A stretch of 64,000 nucleotides of DNA from Phenylobacterium sp. Root700 (GTDB lineage: Bacteria > Pseudomonadota > Alphaproteobacteria > Caulobacterales > Caulobacteraceae), in contig NZ_LMHT01000012.1 in the NCBI RefSeq assembly GCF_001429025.1, positions 184,361-248,360 on the forward strand. Reading direction: 5' to 3'. Shown in pieces: positions 11,458 through 20,504 of this stretch (position 1 is its first letter; each line of letters starts with the position of its first letter). The notes under the pieces were generated by a model, which was given only the letters and a program-made list of their open reading frames with translations, made no database searches and had not been told where the DNA came from. Position numbers and translations under genes: made by a program.

Positions 11458-12237
11458 ATGACCACCGCCCTGAAGCTGACCCCCAGCCTGCGCGACCAAG
11501 TCTCGCAGGAGGAGTGGGCGGTTCGCGTCGATCTGGCCGCCGCCTATCGGCTGGTGGCCCTCTATGGCTGGGACGACCTGATCTTCACCCATCTCAGCGC
11601 CCGCGTGCCGGGGCCCGAGCATCACTTCCTGATCAACCCCTACGACCTGATGTTCGAGGAGATAACCGCCTCGTCGCTGGTGAAGATCGATCATGAGGGA
11701 AACAAGATCGTCGACCGCCCAGCCTATGTGAACCGGGCCGGCTTTGTCATCCATTCGGCGATCCATATGGGCCGCGAGGACGCCCACGCGGTGCTGCACC
11801 TGCACACGCCGCACGGCCAGGCGGTCTCGGCCATGGCCGAGGGCCTGCTGCCCCACACCCAGACTGCGATGATCGCGATGCACGACGTCGCCTATCATGA
11901 CTTCGAGGGCATCGCGACGGAGCTGGAGGAGCGCGAGCGCCTGGTCGCCGACATGGGCGCCAAGAACGCCATGATCCTGCGCAATCACGGCACCCTGACG
12001 GTCGGCGAGTCCGTCGCCCAGGCGTTCCTGCGCATGTACTATCTGGAGCGCGCCTGCGAGGCGCAGGTGCTGATGCTGAGCGCCGGACGGGACGGACTGA
12101 ACACCCCGCCCCAGGGCGTGGCCGAAAAGGTCGAGATGCAGTCGGGCGCCGCGGGCATGAAGAAGCTCGCCGACCGGCTCGCCTGGCCGGCCCTGCTGCG
12201 CAAGCTCGATCGCATCGATCCCAGCTTCCGCAACTAG
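11458..12237 (+). CDS. class II aldolase/adducin family protein
   Basis: This 259-residue protein has the class II aldolase/adducin fold used by fuculose-phosphate aldolase and ribulose-5-phosphate epimerase. The metal-ligand pair is visible at H114 and H116 (HLHTPHG), with a further His in ILRNHGTLTVG. Members of this alphaproteobacterial subgroup often have no assigned substrate, and none can be read here. The gene is divergent from the Crp-type regulator and convergent with the periplasmic sensor gene, whose stop it overlaps by four bases. A Crp-like site lies in its promoter region. Confidence 0.85.
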   Translation: MTTALKLTPSLRDQVSQEEWAVRVDLAAAYRLVALYGWDDLIFTHLSARVPGPEHHFLINPYDLMFEEITASSLVKIDHEGNKIVDRPAYVNRAGFVIHSAIHMGREDAHAVLHLHTPHGQAVSAMAEGLLPHTQTAMIAMHDVAYHDFEGIATELEERERLVADMGAKNAMILRNHGTLTVGESVAQAFLRMYYLERACEAQVLMLSAGRDGLNTPPQGVAEKVEMQSGAAGMKKLADRLAWPALLRKLDRIDPSFRN

Positions 12238-12713
12238 CGCGGACCGTTCGGTCCTTGCGGCTGACCATGCCCTGGCCGTTCGGCCAGGGCCTTGGCCAGC
12301 TTCCGCCGCTCGCCCGGCGTCAGGCCGGCGGCGAAGTCGACGATGCGGGCGTCAATCTCGCCGCGCGTCGCGGCCTCCCGGCTGCGGATCTCGGCGAGCT
12401 TGTGCTTGCTCAGGGCCGGATCGAACGGTTCGGCGCCCAAGGTTCCCCAGGCCTGCGTCCGGGCCTCGCGCATCTGGCGCATATTGGCGCGGGCCTCCAT
12501 GCCCTCGCCGCGCAGCATGGTGCGATAGGCGCGCGCCTGTTCTGGGCTCAAGGCCTCCGCCGCCGCCCAGACCGGCTGATTCATGCGCGCCATCGGCGGC
12601 GGGCGGTCGGAGCGCAGGCGCTGGCCGACCACCAGACCGCCGACCACGCCGCCGATCAGGAACAGGTTCAGGGCCAGCGAGACGAAAAGAACGATCTGCG
12701 TTCGACGGCTCAT
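12234..12713 (-). CDS. membrane-anchored periplasmic sensor, heavy-metal-resistance/CpxP-like family
   Basis: This 159-residue protein has one N-terminal transmembrane helix (about 5-28, IVLFVSLALNLFLIGGVVGG) and a periplasmic helical domain with LxxxQ-like motifs: LSPEQARAYRTML and LTPGERRKLAKAL. This matches the CnrX/ZraP/CpxP type of helical hairpin sensor. It is the last gene of a sigma / anti-sigma / sensor operon, overlapping the anti-sigma stop by one base (TGATG). Only one His lies in the core helices (KHKLAEI), so the CnrX metal ligands are not conserved. It may sense another metal or envelope stress. Confidence 0.75.
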   Translation of the reverse strand: MSRRTQIVLFVSLALNLFLIGGVVGGLVVGQRLRSDRPPPMARMNQPVWAAAEALSPEQARAYRTMLRGEGMEARANMRQMREARTQAWGTLGAEPFDPALSKHKLAEIRSREAATRGEIDARIVDFAAGLTPGERRKLAKALAERPGHGQPQGPNGPR

Positions 12714-13132
12714 CAGGCGCCCTCCCCGACCACGACTTCCGAAAGATCGTCATAGCCGCTGAGCGCGGCGCTGACGGTGTCGTCCTGCTGGACCACCGTG
12801 TCCGACAGCCGCACCCCGACCACCAGGCCCGCCGCGCAGGCGCCGGCCAGGCCCACGCCCAACCCGGCACGCCAGAACCATCCCCGCACGCCAGACCGCG
12901 CGCGGGAGCGCGGCGCCGAGGCGATCACCGCCTCACGCAGTTGGTGCGTAACCGGCTGCGGCGCCCAGGCGCCGAGCAGGTCGTCCAACCCGGCGGGCGC
13001 GGCCAGCGCCGCCTTGGCGAAATCGGGATCGGCCGCCAGCAGCAAGGCGGCGGCGTCCCGTTCGGCCAGCGGCCAGCGGGCGATGTCGCCGCCATAGATC
13101 TCGGCCAGGTCCTCGAAGCGTTCGCGGGTCAT
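12713..13132 (-). CDS. anti-sigma factor, single transmembrane helix
   Basis: This 139-residue protein starts at the ATG at 13132, four bases after the sigma factor stop. The cytoplasmic N-terminal part (MTRERFEDLAEIYGGDIARWP, then LLLAADPDFAKAALAAP) resembles the short sigma-binding segments of ECF anti-sigma factors. A single transmembrane helix follows at about 88-108 (GVGLAGACAAGLVVGV), then a periplasmic tail of about 30 residues. Position between an ECF sigma gene and a periplasmic sensor gene supports the role: it would hold the sigma factor at the membrane until the sensor signals. No zinc-binding HxxxCxxC motif is present. Confidence 0.75.
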   Translation of the reverse strand: MTRERFEDLAEIYGGDIARWPLAERDAAALLLAADPDFAKAALAAPAGLDDLLGAWAPQPVTHQLREAVIASAPRSRARSGVRGWFWRAGLGVGLAGACAAGLVVGVRLSDTVVQQDDTVSAALSGYDDLSEVVVGEGA

Positions 13133-13136
13133 GACG

Positions 13137-13685
13137 TTAGCTTTCCACCATATCCGACAGGGCCGCGCGCAGGGCGCGCCGCCCCCGCGAGAGCAGGCTC
13201 TCCAAGGCCTCGACACTGACGCCCATCAGGGCGGCGGCCTCGATATTGGAAAGCTCCTGATAGTGACAGAGGCTGACAGCCTCGCGTTGACGGTCGGGCA
13301 AGGCGCGCATGGCGGCGGCCACGCGCAGGCCCACGTCCCGCGCCTGCAGGCCGCGATCGGGGGCCGGCCCCTCGTCGATCTGCTCCGGCGGATTGTCGGT
13401 CGCCACCTCGCGGCGGCGGCGCAGCCGGTCGTAGCAGAGGTTCAGCGCCACCCGGTGCAGCCAGGTGTCGAACTTGGCCACGCCCGGCCGCCAGTCCCGT
13501 GCCTGTTTCCAGGCCCGCACGAAGGTCTCCTGAGCGACATCCTCGGCCTCGGCCGCATCGCCCAGCATCCGTCCGGCCAGCGCCAGCAGACGCGGCAGCT
13601 TGCGGGCCACCAGGGCGCGCACGGCCGCAGGGTCGCCCTCGCCCACGCGCGCCAGCAACGCCTCGTCCGGGTCGCCAGGATCCAA
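13137..13685 (-). CDS. ECF (group 4) RNA polymerase sigma factor
   Basis: This 182-residue protein has both ECF sigma domains. Region 2 runs from about 10 to 80, with the core-binding and -10 stretch DAAEAEDVAQETFVRAWK. Region 4 runs from about 120 to 175, with LPDRQREAVSLCHYQELSNIEAAALMGVSVEALESLL as the -35 helix-turn-helix. It is the first gene of a three-gene operon with an anti-sigma factor and a membrane-anchored CnrX-like sensor, all nearly overlapping. It likely drives its own operon; a GGAAT-N14-CGGTT sequence lies upstream (13729-13752). Target genes cannot be told from this window. Confidence 0.9.
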   Translation of the reverse strand: MDPGDPDEALLARVGEGDPAAVRALVARKLPRLLALAGRMLGDAAEAEDVAQETFVRAWKQARDWRPGVAKFDTWLHRVALNLCYDRLRRRREVATDNPPEQIDEGPAPDRGLQARDVGLRVAAAMRALPDRQREAVSLCHYQELSNIEAAALMGVSVEALESLLSRGRRALRAALSDMVES

Positions 13686-13728
13686 GCCTCACCTCACCCT
13701 TGTCGGGTTCAAGCTTGCTATGTCCTTC

Positions 13729-13752
13729 AACCGACGTCACGGCCGCGATTCC
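13729..13752 (-). promoter_or_regulatory. possible ECF-type promoter of the sigma operon
   Basis: On the minus strand GGAAT (13752-13748) and CGGTT (13733-13729) are 14 bases apart, about 44 bases before the sigma start codon. GGAA-type -35 elements are the rule for ECF sigma factors, but the spacer is one or two bases short of typical. Confidence 0.25.
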
Positions 13753-13838
13753 GGCGCAGGGCGTGCTTCATGGAATTTCCTTGGGGCGGCCAAGCGCCCG
13801 TCTATTCCTCTAACGTCGCGCGCGACGCCTTCCGTCGC

Positions 13839-16736
13839 TCAGGATCGCAGAATGACGTCATAGGCCTGACGCGCGCCCTTGCGGGCGGTGTCGAGCTTGG
13901 CCGTCAGAGCCCGGAAATCGCGCGCCTCTCCCGCCCGCGCCAGCAAGGCGCGGAACGCCTTCGGCTCGCCGGACGGATCGGTGTTGTCGGCCAGCGCCAC
14001 CTTCAAAAGTTGGGTCAGGTTCTGCTGCAGGGTCCAGGCCTTGCGCAGCGCCGCCAGGGCCTCAGTGGAGGCCAGGCCCGCAGCGCCCGCCGCAGCCAGG
14101 GCCTGGGCGGTGTTCTGGCTGAGCGGTCCGCCCTCTCCGGCGTGGGCGAGTTGCAGGAACTGGGCGGCGAACTCGATATCGACCAGGCCGCCCGGCGAGA
14201 GCTTCAGGTCCCACTGCCCCTTCGGCGGACGTTCCTGCTCCAGCAGCTCGCGCATTTCGCGGACGTCCTTGGCGGTGCGGGCGCGATCGCGCGAGCGCCG
14301 CAACGCCGCCTCGATCGCCGCCGCCGCGTCGGCCGCGAAGCTCTCGGACGAGGCCCAAACCACCCGCGCGCGGGTCAGGGCCATCAATTCCCAGGTCTCG
14401 GCCTCGCGTTCGTAATATTCCTCGAAGGCCGGGAAGCTGACCGCCACCGGCCCCTTGGTGCCGGAAGGGCGCAGCTGCATGTCGACCTCGTAGAGCTCCC
14501 CCTCCCCGGTTGGGATCGACAGCGCGGCGATCAGGCGCTGGGTGAACCGGCCATAGAAGGTCTCCGCTCCCCACTCCTTGACCGACGACACCGCACCGGG
14601 CGACGACGCGCGATAGAGGGTCATCAGATCAAGGTCGGAGCCCGCGCTCATCTCGCGCGAGCCGCACTTGCCGAGCGCGATCACCGCCGCCTCGCCCTCG
14701 AATTGGCCGCCCAGCCGCTCGGCCTCGGCCAGCGCCGCCGGGGCCAGGGTCTCGATGCAGATATCGGCGAGGTCGGCGAAGGCCCGGCCGGCGGTCTCGG
14801 CGCTGGCCGCCCCGCTCATCACCTGGACGCCGACCCGGAAGGCCTGCTCGCGATGCACCCGGCGCACAGCGTCCATGACGCCTTCGAAGCCGTCGGCCCG
14901 CGCCACCGCGACCGCCATCATGCTGCGGTCTTCCTCGGAATCGAGATTGGCGAAGAAGGCGCCGTCCAGCAGGGCGTCGAGGGCGGCTGGCCGCCGGGCC
15001 AGGGTGTTGGCCAGGCGCGGCGCGAAGGCCATCACCTGCACCATCAGTTCGAACAGCTTCGGCTGGGCCAGGAACAGTGACTGCAGCTGCACCCCCGACG
15101 ACAGCTTGGAGAAGAAATCCTCGAAGCGGGTGAAGGCGGTGTCGGCCGCGCCGGAGGCCTGAGCCGCGTCGAGCAGGCGCGGCGCCAGCCGGGTGAGCAG
15201 CTCCCGCCCGCGTTCGGTCCGCGTGGCCTGGATATGCCCGTGGTGCCAGTTGCGAATGGTCTGGGAGACGCGAGCGGGGTTGGAGAACCCCATCCGGCTG
15301 AGCGTGGCCAGGGTCTCTGGATCATCGTCGACGCCGGTGAAGATCAGGCTGCCGAACTTCGACGACAGCTGCTCCTCGTCGGGGAACAGCTCGCCATAGC
15401 GGCGATTGACGGTCTTCAAGGTCCGCTCGATGGCCGCGTCGAAGCTGCGCACCCGGTCATAGCCCGACAGCGCCGCAACCCGTTTGCGCTCACCATCGGA
15501 TTCCGACAGCCGATGGGTCTGCTCGTCGGCCAGCATCTGGATGCGGTGCTCGGCGGACCGCAGCTGCCGGTAGGCCTCGGTCAGTTCGTCGGCGGCCTGG
15601 CTGGAGACGTGACCCGCCGCTTCCAGGGCGCGCAGGGCGTCCAGGGTGCGCGGCGAGCGCAGCTCGAGGTGCCGGCCGCCCAGGATCAATTGCTGGGTCT
15701 GGACGTAGAACTCAATCTCGCGGATGCCGCCGCGACCGAGCTTCAGGTCCACGCCCTTGGCGGTCAGGCGGTCGTCGACCTTGTGGACGTGGATCTGGCG
15801 CTTGATGGAGTGGATGTCGGCGATGGCGGCGAAGTCGAGGTTCTTGCGCCAGATGAACGGCGCCAGTTCGGCCAGGAACGCCCGGCCCCGCCCGACGTCT
15901 CCGGCCGCCGCGCGCGCCTTGATGAAGGCCGCCCGCTCCCAGTTCTGGCCGACGCTCTCGTAGTAGTCGAAGGCCGCCGCCGCCGGAATCGCCGGCGGGG
16001 TCGAGGACGGATCGGGCCGTAGCCGCAGGTCGACGCGGAAGACATAGCCGTCGCCGGTCTTGTCCTGCATCAGTTCGGCCAGCCGGTGGGTCAGGCGGAC
16101 CGCGAAGCCTTGGGTCTCGATCCCCTCGGCCAGGGGCAGCGCCTCCGGCTCGTAGAAGACCGAGATGTCGATATCGCTGGAATAGTTCAGCTCATAGGCG
16201 CCGTGCTTGCCCATGGCGATGCAGAACCAGCCGGGCACCGGACCTTCGTCGCCCGTTCCGATCCGCGTCAGGCGGCCGGCCTCCAGCTCGGCCTGGGCCG
16301 CGACGGTCAGGGCCGTGTAGAGGGCGGCGTCGGCGAAGCGGGTCAGCCCGCCGGTGACCGCGTCCAGATCCCAGACCCCGCCCAGATCAGCCAGGGCGAT
16401 CAGCAGGTGGGCCTCGGCCTTCAGCTTGCGCAGGCCCGACTTGGCGCCTTCCCAATCGGACGACGCCAGGGCTGTGGTCCGCGCCAGCAGGTCGGCGAAG
16501 CGCACATCCGGGTCGCTCTCCAGCAGGACGCGCAGCCGCACCGGGTCGCGGCGGGCCAGGCTCGTCAGGTACGGCGAGGCGCCGAACACCGGCGCCAGGG
16601 CGGGCCAGGCGGCGTCCAGCAACTCCATCCAGCCGTCGCGCGTGGCGGCCTCGACCAGCACGTTACGCGCACGGTCGGCGGCCTTGAGGTCGGCCACCGG
16701 ACCGCAGGGTTTGAGAACGTCCAGAAGATGAGTCAT
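13839..16736 (-). CDS. glnE: glutamine synthetase adenylyltransferase/deadenylylase
   Basis: This protein of about 965 residues fits GlnE, the bifunctional enzyme that adenylylates glutamine synthetase under nitrogen excess and removes AMP under limitation. It has two nucleotidyltransferase domains. The N-terminal one has YELNYSSDIDISVFY near residues 183-197, the C-terminal one SREMSAGSDLDLMTLY near 690-705. Each carries the paired-aspartate catalytic motif. I prefer the ATG at 16736 to the GTG at 16745. It is 34 bases downstream of the histidine kinase at 16780, so likely part of the ccm-degP-two-component transcription unit, an order that I recall from other alphaproteobacteria. Confidence 0.95.
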   Translation of the reverse strand: MTHLLDVLKPCGPVADLKAADRARNVLVEAATRDGWMELLDAAWPALAPVFGASPYLTSLARRDPVRLRVLLESDPDVRFADLLARTTALASSDWEGAKSGLRKLKAEAHLLIALADLGGVWDLDAVTGGLTRFADAALYTALTVAAQAELEAGRLTRIGTGDEGPVPGWFCIAMGKHGAYELNYSSDIDISVFYEPEALPLAEGIETQGFAVRLTHRLAELMQDKTGDGYVFRVDLRLRPDPSSTPPAIPAAAAFDYYESVGQNWERAAFIKARAAAGDVGRGRAFLAELAPFIWRKNLDFAAIADIHSIKRQIHVHKVDDRLTAKGVDLKLGRGGIREIEFYVQTQQLILGGRHLELRSPRTLDALRALEAAGHVSSQAADELTEAYRQLRSAEHRIQMLADEQTHRLSESDGERKRVAALSGYDRVRSFDAAIERTLKTVNRRYGELFPDEEQLSSKFGSLIFTGVDDDPETLATLSRMGFSNPARVSQTIRNWHHGHIQATRTERGRELLTRLAPRLLDAAQASGAADTAFTRFEDFFSKLSSGVQLQSLFLAQPKLFELMVQVMAFAPRLANTLARRPAALDALLDGAFFANLDSEEDRSMMAVAVARADGFEGVMDAVRRVHREQAFRVGVQVMSGAASAETAGRAFADLADICIETLAPAALAEAERLGGQFEGEAAVIALGKCGSREMSAGSDLDLMTLYRASSPGAVSSVKEWGAETFYGRFTQRLIAALSIPTGEGELYEVDMQLRPSGTKGPVAVSFPAFEEYYEREAETWELMALTRARVVWASSESFAADAAAAIEAALRRSRDRARTAKDVREMRELLEQERPPKGQWDLKLSPGGLVDIEFAAQFLQLAHAGEGGPLSQNTAQALAAAGAAGLASTEALAALRKAWTLQQNLTQLLKVALADNTDPSGEPKAFRALLARAGEARDFRALTAKLDTARKGARQAYDVILRS

Positions 16737-16779
16737 CGCAAACACTCTAGCCGGGTGGCGATAGAGATTTCACTAGCGC

Positions 16780-18183
16780 TTAGGCCGGGCGCGGCAGGAT
16801 CAGGGCGACGCGGAGGCCTGGGCCCATCTCACCGACCTTGCCTGGCCCCTCCGACAGCTCCAGCCGCCCGCCATGCGCCTCGGCGACGGCGGCGACCAGC
16901 GACAGGCCAAGGCCCGAGCCCGGTTCGCTCCGGCTGTTCTCCAGGCGGACGAAACGTTCGACTACCCGCGCGCGGTCCTCGTCGGGCACGCCTGGCCCAG
17001 TGTCGGTGATCGAATATTCGACCTCGCCGGACGAACGGCGACGGACCCGCAGCATGATCGCGCCGCCAGCCGGGGTGTACTTCACGGCGTTGTCCAGCAG
17101 ATTGGCCAGGGCCTGGGCCAGGAACTCGCGGTTACCGCGCACCTGGAGGTCCCGGGTCAGTTCGGCGTCGAACTCCAGCCCCTTGTCCTCGCAGGTCGGC
17201 TCGTAGAGTTCGGCGAGATCGGCGGCGAGATCGGCCGGGTCGAACAGCACCTGGTCGGGGGCCTGCCCCGCCGCCTGCAGCCGGGCGATGGACAGCACCG
17301 CGCCAAAGGTCTTCAGCACGCCGTCGGTGTCGTCCAGCGCCTGGCCCAGCGCTTCCTCGGCGTTGCCCTTGCCGGCCTCGACGTCGAGATAGGCCGTCTC
17401 CAGCCGCGCCCGCAGGCGGGTCAGGGGCGAGCGCAGGTCGTGGGCGATGGCGTCGCCGGCGTGACGATGGCCGGCCATCGAGCGTTCCAGCCGGTCGAGC
17501 ATCTCGTTGACGCCCTCGGAGAGTTCATCGAACTCGTCACGGGTGCCGCGCACCGTGGCCCTGGCGCCGAAGTCGCCGTTGCGCACGGCGGCGACGACAT
17601 CGTTCAACGCCCCCATGCTGCGCGAGACGTTGCGGCTGACCAGCAGGCCCCCGGCCAAGCCGAGCACGATGACCAGGGCGCCCGCGCCCCACAGGGCCCG
17701 GACGATCTTGACGACATAGGCCTGGTCTTCGCTGACGTCGGCGCCGACGAACAGGATCTCGCCGCCGCTCAGCCGCTCCTGGAAGCCGCGCGCCGGGTGC
17801 TTCACCAGCCGCCCCTGGGCGTCGTAATCAGTGACCGAGAAACTGGCGCGCGAAGGGGCGCCGCGGACGTCTTCCAACGGCGACTCGGCGATGGAGCCCG
17901 AGATCCGCGTCCCGTCCGGCTTCATGAGCAGGTAGAGGAACGGCCGTTCGCTGGCCGCGCGCTCGATCAGCGACTGGTTCACGGCGTCGACGCCGGCCCG
18001 GTCATAGGCCGCGACCAGCGAGCGCATCTCGCGCGTGATGTTCTGGTCGGTCCGCCGCGTCGCCTCCCCGGCGGTCGCCAGGTAGATGTAGGCCAGGAAG
18101 GCGCTGGCCGCCGCGGCGAACAACGCCAGGAACAGCAGGGTCAGCCGGAACGGCGTGGTTCTGAAAAGCCTGGGCAGGCGCAT
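16780..18183 (-). CDS. sensor histidine kinase, partner of the response regulator at 18199
   Basis: This 467-residue inner-membrane kinase has a transmembrane helix at about 10-32, a periplasmic sensor of about 125 residues, a second helix at about 160-182 (GAGALVIVLGLAGGLLVSRN), a HAMP domain, and HisKA with phospho-His H248 (IAHDLRSPLTRLRARLE). The ATPase domain has its N box at NLLDNAVKYTP and the G boxes at DTGPGVPDEDRARV and GSGLGLSLV. It lies 15 bases downstream of its OmpR-type regulator and downstream of degP. A role in envelope homeostasis is inferred from context. In rhizobia and Brucella the equivalent pair next to degP is, from memory, called FeuP/FeuQ. Confidence 0.9.
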   Translation of the reverse strand: MRLPRLFRTTPFRLTLLFLALFAAAASAFLAYIYLATAGEATRRTDQNITREMRSLVAAYDRAGVDAVNQSLIERAASERPFLYLLMKPDGTRISGSIAESPLEDVRGAPSRASFSVTDYDAQGRLVKHPARGFQERLSGGEILFVGADVSEDQAYVVKIVRALWGAGALVIVLGLAGGLLVSRNVSRSMGALNDVVAAVRNGDFGARATVRGTRDEFDELSEGVNEMLDRLERSMAGHRHAGDAIAHDLRSPLTRLRARLETAYLDVEAGKGNAEEALGQALDDTDGVLKTFGAVLSIARLQAAGQAPDQVLFDPADLAADLAELYEPTCEDKGLEFDAELTRDLQVRGNREFLAQALANLLDNAVKYTPAGGAIMLRVRRRSSGEVEYSITDTGPGVPDEDRARVVERFVRLENSRSEPGSGLGLSLVAAVAEAHGGRLELSEGPGKVGEMGPGLRVALILPRPA

Positions 18184-18198
18184 GGCGTGCGCCGGCCC

Positions 18199-18870
18199 TT
18201 AAGGATCGAGACGATAGCCCGCGCCGCGGACCGTCTGCAGCATCGGCTTGTCGAAGCCCTTGTCGATCTTGGAGCGCAGACGGGAAATATGGACGTCGAT
18301 GACGTTGGTCTGAGGATCGAAGTGATACTCCCAGACCTTCTCCAGCAGCATGGTGCGCGTCACCGACTGCCCGGCATGGCGCATCATGAACTCCAGCAGC
18401 TGGAATTCGCGCGGCTGCAGGTCGATCTCCTTGCCCTGGCGATGCACGGCGCGGCCGATCAGGTCCATCTCCAATTCGCCGACCCGCAGCATGGTCTGCA
18501 CCGAGCCGGTTTCGCGCCGGCGCGAGAGCGCCTCGACCCGGGCGATCAGTTCGGCGAAGGCGTAGGGCTTGACCAGATAATCGTCGCCGCCGGCCTTCAG
18601 GCCCTCGACGCGGTCGTTGATCTCGCCCAGGGCCGACAGGAACAGCACCGGGGTCTGATCGCCTTCGCGGCGGATGGTCTGGATCATGGTGACCCCGTCC
18701 ATCCGCGGCATCATGCGGTCGACGATCATCACGTCGTATTCGCCGGCGCGAGAGGCGGCCAGGCCGTCCTCGCCGTCCGGCGCGCGAACGCATTCGTGAC
18801 CCGCCTCGGTGAGACCGCGGTCCATGACTTCCGCGGCCTCGAGGTCGTCCTCGACAATCAGAATACGCAT
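18199..18870 (-). CDS. OmpR/PhoB family response regulator
   Basis: This 223-residue regulator has a receiver with acidic residues E7-D8-D9, phospho-acceptor D51 (VMIVDRMMP) and Lys in YLVKPY. A C-terminal winged-helix domain follows (about 125-220, LQPREFQLLEFMMRHAGQSVTRTMLLEKVW; then TNVIDVHISRLRSKID). It is downstream of degP by about 30 bases and immediately upstream of its cognate kinase gene. The tight spacing suggests co-transcription with degP and the ccm genes. No separate promoter is apparent. Confidence 0.92.
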   Translation of the reverse strand: MRILIVEDDLEAAEVMDRGLTEAGHECVRAPDGEDGLAASRAGEYDVMIVDRMMPRMDGVTMIQTIRREGDQTPVLFLSALGEINDRVEGLKAGGDDYLVKPYAFAELIARVEALSRRRETGSVQTMLRVGELEMDLIGRAVHRQGKEIDLQPREFQLLEFMMRHAGQSVTRTMLLEKVWEYHFDPQTNVIDVHISRLRSKIDKGFDKPMLQTVRGAGYRLDP

Positions 18871-18902
18871 CGTGCTTCAGAGCCCCCGGGCGTTACGTCA
18901 GA

Positions 18903-20504
18903 CTAGCCGGAAATCTTCAGCGGCAGGAAGGAGGTGCGGCCACCGCGATGCACCCCGACCAGGATGCTCGGGCGTCCGGCCTTCTTGGCCGCCGTGACCG
19001 CCGCGGAGAACTCCGCCGCCGTCGTCACCGGTTCGCCGCTGGCCTGGACGATGATGTCGTCCTTGCGCAGGCCGCGCTGGGCAGCGTCCGACGATTGGTC
19101 GATGCTGGCGATCAGCACGCCGCGAACCGCCGGATCGAGGCTGAGACGACGACGCGCGGCCTCGTCCAGCGGCGCAAGCGCCAGGCCGAGCACCACCGGA
19201 CGCTGAGCCTGGGCGCCGGAGCCTTCGCCGCCGCCGCGGTTCGGACCGCCCTGCGGGTTGTCGTTGGCCGCCAGTTCCTTCTCGGTCGGGCGCACGCCTG
19301 AACGGATCTCGACCACCTTGCGCTTGCCGGCCCGTAGCAGGTCCAGGCGCAGCACGTCGCCGGCCTTGGCCTTGGCGACTTCGCGGGTCAGTTCGGACGA
19401 GGTCTTCACGCCCACGCCGTTGACCGAGGTCACGATGTCGCCCGACAGCAGGCCGGCGCGATCCGACGGACCGCCCGGCGTCACATTGGCGACGATGGCG
19501 CCGCGCTGGGCGCCGAGACCCTGGGCTTCGGCCATCTCGGCGGTGAAGTTCTGGATCGAGGCGCCGATATAGCCGCGGGTGATCTTGCCGCCGGAGATCA
19601 GCTGCTTGGTGATCGAGTCGGCGACGTCGGCCGGAATGGCGAAGCCGATGCCGACCGAGCCGCCCGAGGGCGAGAAGATCGCGGTGTTCACCCCGATCAC
19701 CCGGCCATAGACGTCGAAGGTCGGGCCGCCGGAGTTACCCCGGTTGATGGGGGCGTCGATCTGGATGTAGTCGACGAAGGTCTCGCCGATGTCACGGCCA
19801 TAGGCCGAGATGATCCCGGCGGTGGCGGTGCCGCCGAGGCCGAACGGGTTGCCGACGGTGATGACCCAGTCGCCGACCCGAGGCTTGCCCGCGTTCTCGA
19901 AGTTCACAAACGGGAAGCCCGAACCCTTGACCTTCAGGACGGCCAGGTCGGTGCCCTCGTCGCGGCCCACGACCACGGCGTCGAGTTCGCGCTCGTCCTT
20001 GAGCACGACCTTGATCTCCTTGGCGTTCTCCACGACGTGATTGTTGGTCACGATGTAGCCGTCGCCCGAGATGAAGAAGCCCGAGCCCGAGGATTGCTGG
20101 CTGGGCAGGCGCGGCTGGCCGCCACGGCCGCCAGGGCCCGGTTGCGCCGGCTGACCGGGCTGAGCGTCTTCGCCCTCTTCACCGCCCGGCCCCTGGCGCG
20201 GCACGATGTCGAAGGGGAAGTTCTCGAAGCCGGGGACCCGGCGCAACGCCGAGGCGTCGACTTCCGAGGTCACGTTGATCGACACAACGGCCGGCGAAAC
20301 CTTTTCGAAGATGTCGGCGAACGACAACGGCGCGCCGGGCGGCGGCGCGAAGATCGGCGCCGTCGAGGTCTTCATCAGCAGGCCGCGCTGCACGTTGGAG
20401 TCGGCCAAGGGGTTGTCGGCCAAGTTGGCGCCAGCGAGGGCCGCGGTGGCGACGCCGACACCCGCCAGGGCGCCGAGGAGATAACCGGTCTTCTTCGAGG
20501 TCAT
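18903..20504 (-). CDS. degP: DegP/HtrA periplasmic serine protease
   Basis: This 533-residue Do-family protease/chaperone degrades or refolds misfolded envelope proteins. A short N-terminal hydrophobic segment (about 7-25) acts as export signal or anchor. The catalytic triad is H156 (TNNHVVE), D186 (TDLAVLK) and S258 (GNSGGPTF). Two PDZ domains follow (about 300-400 and 440-525), separated by a glycine-rich linker. A proline/glycine-rich insertion lies before the catalytic domain (about 104-135). It follows ccmH after a 160-base gap that probably holds its own promoter. The ribosome-binding site GAAGG lies close to the ATG. Confidence 0.95.
   Translation of the reverse strand: MTSKKTGYLLGALAGVGVATAALAGANLADNPLADSNVQRGLLMKTSTAPIFAPPPGAPLSFADIFEKVSPAVVSINVTSEVDASALRRVPGFENFPFDIVPRQGPGGEEGEDAQPGQPAQPGPGGRGGQPRLPSQQSSGSGFFISGDGYIVTNNHVVENAKEIKVVLKDERELDAVVVGRDEGTDLAVLKVKGSGFPFVNFENAGKPRVGDWVITVGNPFGLGGTATAGIISAYGRDIGETFVDYIQIDAPINRGNSGGPTFDVYGRVIGVNTAIFSPSGGSVGIGFAIPADVADSITKQLISGGKITRGYIGASIQNFTAEMAEAQGLGAQRGAIVANVTPGGPSDRAGLLSGDIVTSVNGVGVKTSSELTREVAKAKAGDVLRLDLLRAGKRKVVEIRSGVRPTEKELAANDNPQGGPNRGGGEGSGAQAQRPVVLGLALAPLDEAARRRLSLDPAVRGVLIASIDQSSDAAQRGLRKDDIIVQASGEPVTTAAEFSAAVTAAKKAGRPSILVGVHRGGRTSFLPLKISG

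Follow-up and report, generated by a model that had tools for sequence, protein, structure and literature searches.

What does a sigma factor switch sense when its sensor resembles the metal-binding protein CnrX and the metal ligands are missing? The question is raised by a locus of Phenylobacterium sp. Root700 (Caulobacteraceae), within a window of 64,000 nucleotides (contig NZ_LMHT01000012.1, positions 184,361 to 248,360; coordinates below are those of the window). On its minus strand, directly after glnE (PF03710), a gene for an extracytoplasmic function (ECF) sigma factor is followed after 4 bases by a gene for a small membrane protein, a candidate anti-sigma factor, whose stop codon overlaps by 1 base the start of a gene for a membrane-anchored periplasmic sensor. 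We give a probability of roughly two in three to the reading that this is a metal-blind switch of the CnrYXH architecture class, most likely an envelope-stress system orthologous to SigV of Caulobacter vibrioides.

The cassette and its sensor

A PF13801 sensor gene follows the sigma gene on the same strand in 133 of 137 related-genome loci, and in the four loci that appear to lack it (L082, L091, L100, L118) the sequence ends before the sensor could appear, which leaves no testable locus without it (133 of 133). Because L003-L032 were fetched with a sensor query, only the 109 loci retrieved by sigma alone are unbiased in this respect; among these the sensor is found in all 105 that are long enough. 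Duplicates or the paralog (L001, L002, L114) and stretches with no sigma gene (L016, L032) were left out of the counts, and the class-level loci discussed below are the 30 best-scoring matches of a class-level sigma search. The grouping of sigma factor, anti-sigma candidate and sensor is not due to chance. The initial annotation of this DNA had proposed such a cassette, and all three genes were found where it placed them. Its upstream limit of 13760 lies 75 bases too far up, as the sigma gene starts at the TTG at 13685, just one codon after the reading frame opens.

The sensor scores 85.6 bits against PF13801, for which the cut-off is 29.2 and CnrX itself scores 91.2. This is the only family whose cut-off it passes; that of PF07813 (Spy/CpxP) is not reached. 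An AlphaFold2 (AF2) model, with a mean confidence (pLDDT) of 88, consists of a transmembrane (TM) helix together with a bundle built from a helical hairpin. Among solved structures, those of CnrX top the Foldseek list for this model (probability as high as 0.99, with E 0.13), and CnrX also comes first in VIA-align (Z 9.5, root-mean-square deviation 3.5 over 104 residues, residues 46-149). The expectation that the third protein has a PF13801/CnrX fold is supported. Lower down stand ZraP, NccX, CpxP and Spy, among unrelated helical proteins. Searched directly against PDB sequences, the sensor gave chance-level matches only. Comparison of the family profile with the PDB returned a repeat in a 'lysozyme' entry (5i8l, E 0.0006), a Salmonella VirG-like protein (5ihf, E 0.003) and Spy (E 0.27-0.8), all of which are leads at most.

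The metal ligands of CnrX, which we take to be H42, H46, E63, H119 and M123 (E63 and M123 also appear in structure titles), are absent from the window sensor. As anticipated, the ligand columns give none of the five. Across a MAFFT alignment of 133 sensors, 123 keep none of the five and 10 keep one; the core is devoid of His in 63 of the 133, and 129 have no Cys. The missing ligands speak against a Cnr-type metal switch, and metal sensing through the CnrX site was rejected on the ligand columns. The window sensor does have the single core His reported for it earlier, and the neighbours of the cassette are a class II aldolase gene and glnE, with no metal efflux gene adjacent, also as reported. 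For this family, the name 'periplasmic heavy metal sensor' would accordingly seem to be a misnomer. What the 133 sensors do conserve is a motif in the TM helix, S12-x3-N16-x-F18 (S12 in 127, N16 in 132, F18 in 122), and a second motif near the last helix, L131-x4-R136 (L131 in 125, R136 in 131).

The middle protein of 139 residues has no family match in Pfam or NCBIfam, and is a candidate anti-sigma factor by virtue of its position and its conserved sequence features. It has a single TM helix at about residues 89-107, with a short tail past it. A TM-bearing frame lies between sigma and sensor genes in 128 of 133 loci, with RW[PS] near the N-terminus in 117 of the 128; our script found no such frame in the other five (L121, L122, L123, L132, L139). 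In the TM helix, G102 is present in 107 of 107 relatives and G106 in 106 of 107. A contact between the TM helices of sensor and anti-sigma candidate is proposed because N16 in the one and G102/G106 in the other are nearly invariant. The AF2 model is helical, with pLDDT values of 94-98 for residues 1-50. Kinship with CnrY was considered and rejected, as there is no match to PF17524 or NF033790, against which CnrY itself scores 174.9 and 139 bits.

The sigma factor passes the curated equivalog cut-off of NF004113/PRK05602 (289.4 bits against 208) and contains Sigma70_r2 and Sigma70_r4 domains by Pfam. It is 64-87% identical to 21 aligned relatives, and its nearest named relatives by sigma-factor kinship are from Phenylobacterium. 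The features of the locus are collected in Table 1.

Table 1 Features of the cassette locus, in window coordinates
Feature	Position	Strand	Basis
ECF sigma factor, 182 amino acids (aa), TTG start	13137..13685	-	NF004113, Sigma70_r2/r4; PRK05602 family, probable SigV ortholog
Anti-sigma candidate, 139 aa, helical cytoplasmic part, RWP (19-21), D50, one TM helix, G102-x3-G106	12713..13132	-	Position, TM helix, conserved columns
TM-anchored periplasmic sensor, 159 aa, PF13801/CnrX-like fold, without CnrX ligands	12234..12713	-	PF13801, AF2, structure searches
Operon promoter-like site GCGACGGA-N15-CGTTAGA (-35/-10)	13809..13838	-	Motif match; adjoins glnE stop codon
Scar of upstream EF-hand (CaBP-type) gene, MKHA joined to LRRNRGRDVG and stop	13727..13771	-	Ends like those in L034/L037

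The CnrYXH system of Cupriavidus metallidurans (pMOL28, NC_007972) likewise packs an ECF sigma factor, a small anti-sigma factor and a PF13801 X protein closely together. It differs in gene order, which is Y-X-H there and H-Y-X in the window, in that CnrY belongs to PF17524, in that all five ligands are kept, and in the adjoining cnrCBA efflux genes. The earlier description of the locus as CnrYXH-like therefore stands as far as a cassette with a CnrX-fold sensor is concerned. It does not stand as a description of a member that lost its ligands locally, since their absence is family-wide, the anti-sigma candidate is not a CnrY and the order differs. Spy and CpxP (PF07813, LTXXQ) share with the periplasmic part of the sensor a fold class and the L-x4-R motif, and one of the predicted targets of the system belongs to PF07813, whereas the window sensor scores as PF13801 and stays TM-anchored beside the sigma gene.

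The same genome holds a second PF13801 gene on another contig (G000:C5), which keeps all five CnrX ligands. Its cassette (L244:8467-9778) starts with an anti-sigma candidate, continues with the sensor and ends with sigma. It is followed on the same strand by genes for a multicopper oxidase (PF07732) and CopB (PF05275), cassette and both genes spanning L244:8467-12605, and has a DUF411 gene (PF04214) beside it. This second cassette looks like the metal system of the genome, and the window cassette like a different branch. As an observation in its own right, the second cassette is a Cnr-type switch that may control copper resistance.

Promoter, EF-hand gene and the SigV circuit

In C. vibrioides, the gene cabp (CCNA_02838), encoding a periplasmic EF-hand protein, adjoins the ECF gene sigV (CCNA_02837) (PMC13171946, 2026). 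Transcript mapping by 5' rapid amplification of cDNA ends (5'RACE) placed the cabp promoter at a -10 box CGTTCA, a spacer of 13 nt and a -35 box GGAAA. Promoter activity of both cabp and sigV rises on SigV overexpression and falls on sigV deletion, acid shock and calcium depletion (by EGTA) act as inducers, and CaBP overexpression raises sigV. The link across the membrane from CaBP to SigV is drawn in that paper as a question mark, with an anti-sigma factor suggested.

Among the relatives of the window cassette we see the same neighbour. In Caulobacter-type loci a gene for a small EF-hand protein mostly lies directly upstream of sigma (89 of the 107 that have 450 or more bases upstream), and in the wider class it does so in 12 of 27; its presence was scored by motif (at least one loop) within 260 bases of sigma. 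The proteins usually have three to four loops and, as read from the sequence, a signal peptide, and the EF-hand identity was confirmed by Pfam on the L034 protein. The window has no such gene. Instead, the start and the tail of one are fused in frame (Table 1), and in L034 and L037 a full EF-hand gene sits between matching ends. Tail-only remnants are readable in four loci (L004, L005, L039, L041), and L033 holds a different short remnant, MTHVPQAAVLTLRQNHGRDAA, at L033:1981-2160. As this remnant differs from the window scar, in-frame loss that spares the start and the stop has apparently recurred, and it may be that sigma depends in some way on the leader being translated. On the sigma tree, 13 changes of EF-hand presence are needed, 9 of them forced by well-supported branches; the EF-hand gene has therefore been gained or lost many times, with the sensor constant throughout. 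The best EF-hand protein encoded elsewhere in the Root700 genome is 36% identical, and its gene has no promoter site.

The EF-hand gene, or sigma itself in loci that lack it, is preceded by a motif CGACGGA-N15-CGTT. Apart from the window, 77 Caulobacter-type loci offer 1 kb of upstream sequence; the relaxed form of the motif occurs in all 77, compared to 4 of 243 background windows, and the strict form in 68 of the 77 compared to none of the 243. For the class loci (n = 26) these numbers are 13 and 8. The motif lines up with the mapped cabp promoter: in CGACGG-N16-CGTT the GG opens GGAAA and 13 bases remain, so the positions coincide. A cabp cloning primer given in PMC13171946 ends in GCGCGACGGA. 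The window site, with CGTTAGA as its -10 part, fits the CGTTCA-type box and the spacing; it is promoter-like, and would be the operon promoter if it is active in this species as we infer.

A further primer from PMC13171946 encodes the peptide HRVALN, which also occurs in the window sigma factor. One NA1000 primer pattern had no match in 338 loci or 75 genomes, and a second matched only L059. Taken with the neighbour type and the promoter, the sequence evidence indicates that the window system is most likely the SigV ortholog. Most relatives of the window cassette share with the C. vibrioides circuit an EF-hand gene placed ahead of the ECF sigma gene, and the further likenesses are the -10 box and spacing of the promoter and, as predicted here, positive autoregulation. 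Unlike here, the available part of PMC13171946 names no anti-sigma or sensor gene and no wider regulon, and the EF-hand gene has been lost in the window. The anti-sigma candidate and the sensor are candidates for the missing membrane link, which means that two genes can now be named for a connection that this part of the paper calls unidentified.

A second published relative is possibly the operon of rpoE8, a hypothetical gene and a 'periplasmic heavy metal sensor' gene in Azospirillum brasilense, which is autoactivated by RpoE8 and whose function is stated to be unknown in the accessible part of PMC12826043, a 2025 paper on RpoE6. The likeness, a sigma factor, a small unknown protein and an annotated metal sensor under autoactivation, is one of annotated layout, and the same part of that paper mentions neither an EF-hand gene nor a regulon for rpoE8. 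In the open-licence PMC literature we found no paper with CCNA_02835, CCNA_02836, CC_2750 or CC_2751 (tags that are only assumed to be sigV neighbours) and none that pairs PF13801 with 'sigma factor'; the available parts of PMC7403779, PMC9731502 and PMC3511200 hold nothing on the cassette locus.

The predicted regulon

The motif was used to search for further targets. In 149 family genomes, GCGACGGA-N15/16-CGTTNNA gave 257 sites, compared to 20 for the reversed control, and the stricter CGTTNAA form gave 36 compared to 1 in 60 genomes. The Root700 genome itself has three GCGACGGA-N15/16-CGTTNNA sites and no control site: one before the operon, one before an LTXXQ gene and one before a gene for a plug-like protein. 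Exact CGACGGA-N15/16-CGTT matches number 11 in this genome, compared to 1 in the control; several lie inside genes and were taken as chance. Sites before a GNAT gene and a small lipoprotein-like gene (L143, L145) were unsupported as targets.

The LTXXQ gene (PF07813, 47.2 bits) has its promoter site at -62. The gene itself (L245:4835-5353, G000:C34) stands within a cytochrome c maturation (ccm) cluster, right after ccmB and before a cytochrome c assembly gene. At loci of LTXXQ homologues, a relaxed site was found within 300 bases in 13 of 30, compared to 13 of 3276 background windows, and a strict site in 8 of 30 compared to none of 3276. Within the genus, 13 genomes had a homologue and 11 were read, of which 10 carry the relaxed site. 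The third site precedes the gene for an outer-membrane plug-like protein, for which PF07715 scores just under its cut-off; a protein 83% identical to it in L296, and related ones in L297 and L307, also have the site.

In other genera the site occurs before genes for CusB/HlyD-type efflux adaptors, further EF-hand proteins, DUF1800 proteins, TetR regulators and others. The 117 annotated sites comprise 16 efflux adaptors, 15 LTXXQ, 15 EF-hand, 11 sigma, 4 DUF1800, 4 TetR, 4 pectic lyase-type, 3 plug-like, 2 DUF192, 2 outer-membrane barrel, 1 other and 40 unclassified, counts that show kinds and not frequencies because those in 40 regions were picked by hand, partly for looking alike. Where a target could be recognised, it is often an envelope protein or one that is exported. 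In Brevundimonas-type loci (L299-L306, L308, L309, L312, L316; hand-picked, with Pfam on L299 only) the motif precedes a CusB/HlyD-type efflux adaptor gene, which suggests that efflux belongs to the regulon in these genomes. The motif also stands before DUF1800 (PF08811) proteins in several genera (L194, L195, L249, L334), which is a lead on DUF1800.

Proposed mechanism and competing explanations

At rest, the one-TM anti-sigma factor would hold the sigma factor at the membrane, jointly with the CnrX/CpxP-fold sensor, the Asn of the sensor TM helix and the GxxxG of the anti-sigma TM helix being the likely contact. Envelope trouble, which for SigV means acid shock or calcium depletion, would alter the sensor and free the sigma factor. 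The freed sigma factor would then read CGACGGA-N15/16-CGTT promoters, raise its own operon and induce genes for periplasmic protection, here the LTXXQ (Spy/CpxP-type) protein and probably the TonB-plug-like outer-membrane protein. The EF-hand protein would be an accessory part, deleted in this genome with the rest kept. We favour envelope stress because the ligands are missing, many targets are envelope or exported proteins and the probable ortholog answers to acid and calcium depletion. The suggestion, made at the outset, that such stress is a likelier signal than metal is thereby supported, the signal itself being deduced. The promoter code and the target list can now be tested in C. vibrioides.

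Several observations weigh against this reading. For the fold, the VIA-align Z of 9.5 lies below the level of about 13 that is telling for helical bundles, unrelated helical proteins in the same list reach 7-8.6, and the sensor-family profile matches CnrX alone with a probability of 14%; the PF13801 match is stronger evidence for the kinship than these structure scores. Foldseek matched the anti-sigma model to no solved anti-sigma fold, which is not evidence of novelty. The promoter code has its gaps: even the relaxed motif is missing from 13 of 26 class loci and from 17 of 30 LTXXQ homologue loci, an exact site is absent from 34 of the 149 family genomes, and with two mismatches allowed the Root700 genome gives 39 sites compared to 29 in the control, which is little enrichment. 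Of the 117 annotated sites, 64 are flagged as possibly coding (25 on the same strand, 39 on the opposite one). SigV orthology draws on the HRVALN primer peptide, the neighbour type and the promoter. In C. vibrioides, sigV is reported to have its own promoter inside cabp and a monocistronic, SigT-dependent transcript (PMC13171946), an arrangement at odds with one promoter for the whole operon. Finally, the protein contacts, promoter activity and signal in this species are deductions from sequence.

The published C. vibrioides model agrees with a different division of labour, in which the actual sensing falls to CaBP: this EF-hand protein would read periplasmic calcium and act on the anti-sigma factor, leaving the PF13801 protein secondary. 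The induction of cabp by EGTA, the rise of sigV on CaBP overexpression (PMC13171946) and the frequency of the EF-hand gene (89/107 and 12/27 loci) are in its favour, but 18 of the 107 loci keep sigma and sensor without the EF-hand gene, the tree requires 13 changes (9 forced), the scars of the window and L033 differ, and the nearest EF-hand protein elsewhere in the genome is a 36% identical one without a site. Moreover, the results section of PMC13171946 reports no effect of CaBP on its own promoter in the absence of calcium, and its discussion says the opposite. The apparent obligate part is the sensor, found in 133 of 133 testable loci, and the EF-hand protein looks optional. We consider CaBP an unlikely primary sensor.

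Slightly lower again we place the idea that the PF13801 protein is output only, a tethered Spy-like chaperone, and that the anti-sigma factor senses alone, for example through regulated proteolysis. Spy and CpxP share the fold class, a Spy-type gene is among the predicted targets, and the anti-sigma candidate has the TM helix and short tail that such a scheme would use, yet the sensor is never missing from a testable locus and its TM Asn is nearly invariant. CnrX is also a precedent for a signalling role of such a protein. Least probable, and very doubtful in our view, is a metal-resistance switch in which the sensor binds a transition metal through residues other than those of CnrX. The PF13801 name, CnrX as nearest fold and the efflux adaptor genes behind the motif in some genomes speak for it; against it stand the absence of all five CnrX ligands, the 63 of 133 sensors without core His and 129 without Cys, the absence of adjacent metal genes, and the presence elsewhere in the genome of a Cnr-type cassette with multicopper oxidase and CopB genes.

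The envelope-stress reading may extend further, though we hold this wider version only tentatively, at less than even odds. The CnrX fold would have been recast as a metal-free envelope-stress receptor signalling within the membrane to its anti-sigma factor through Asn16 and GxxxG. The stress sigma family so defined, widespread in the Alphaproteobacteria and including SigV and perhaps RpoE8, would have a promoter code to itself and a core regulon in which chaperone-like proteins of the periplasm are joined by calcium-binding proteins and efflux adaptors. The EF-hand protein would be a tuner, dispensable and repeatedly lost.

Upstream of the promoter-like site, window positions 13839-20504 hold, all on the minus strand, glnE and genes for a histidine kinase, a response regulator and a DegP/HtrA-type protease. 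Among relatives with 5 kb of upstream sequence, glnE is present in 61 of 62 and the kinase gene in 55 of 62.

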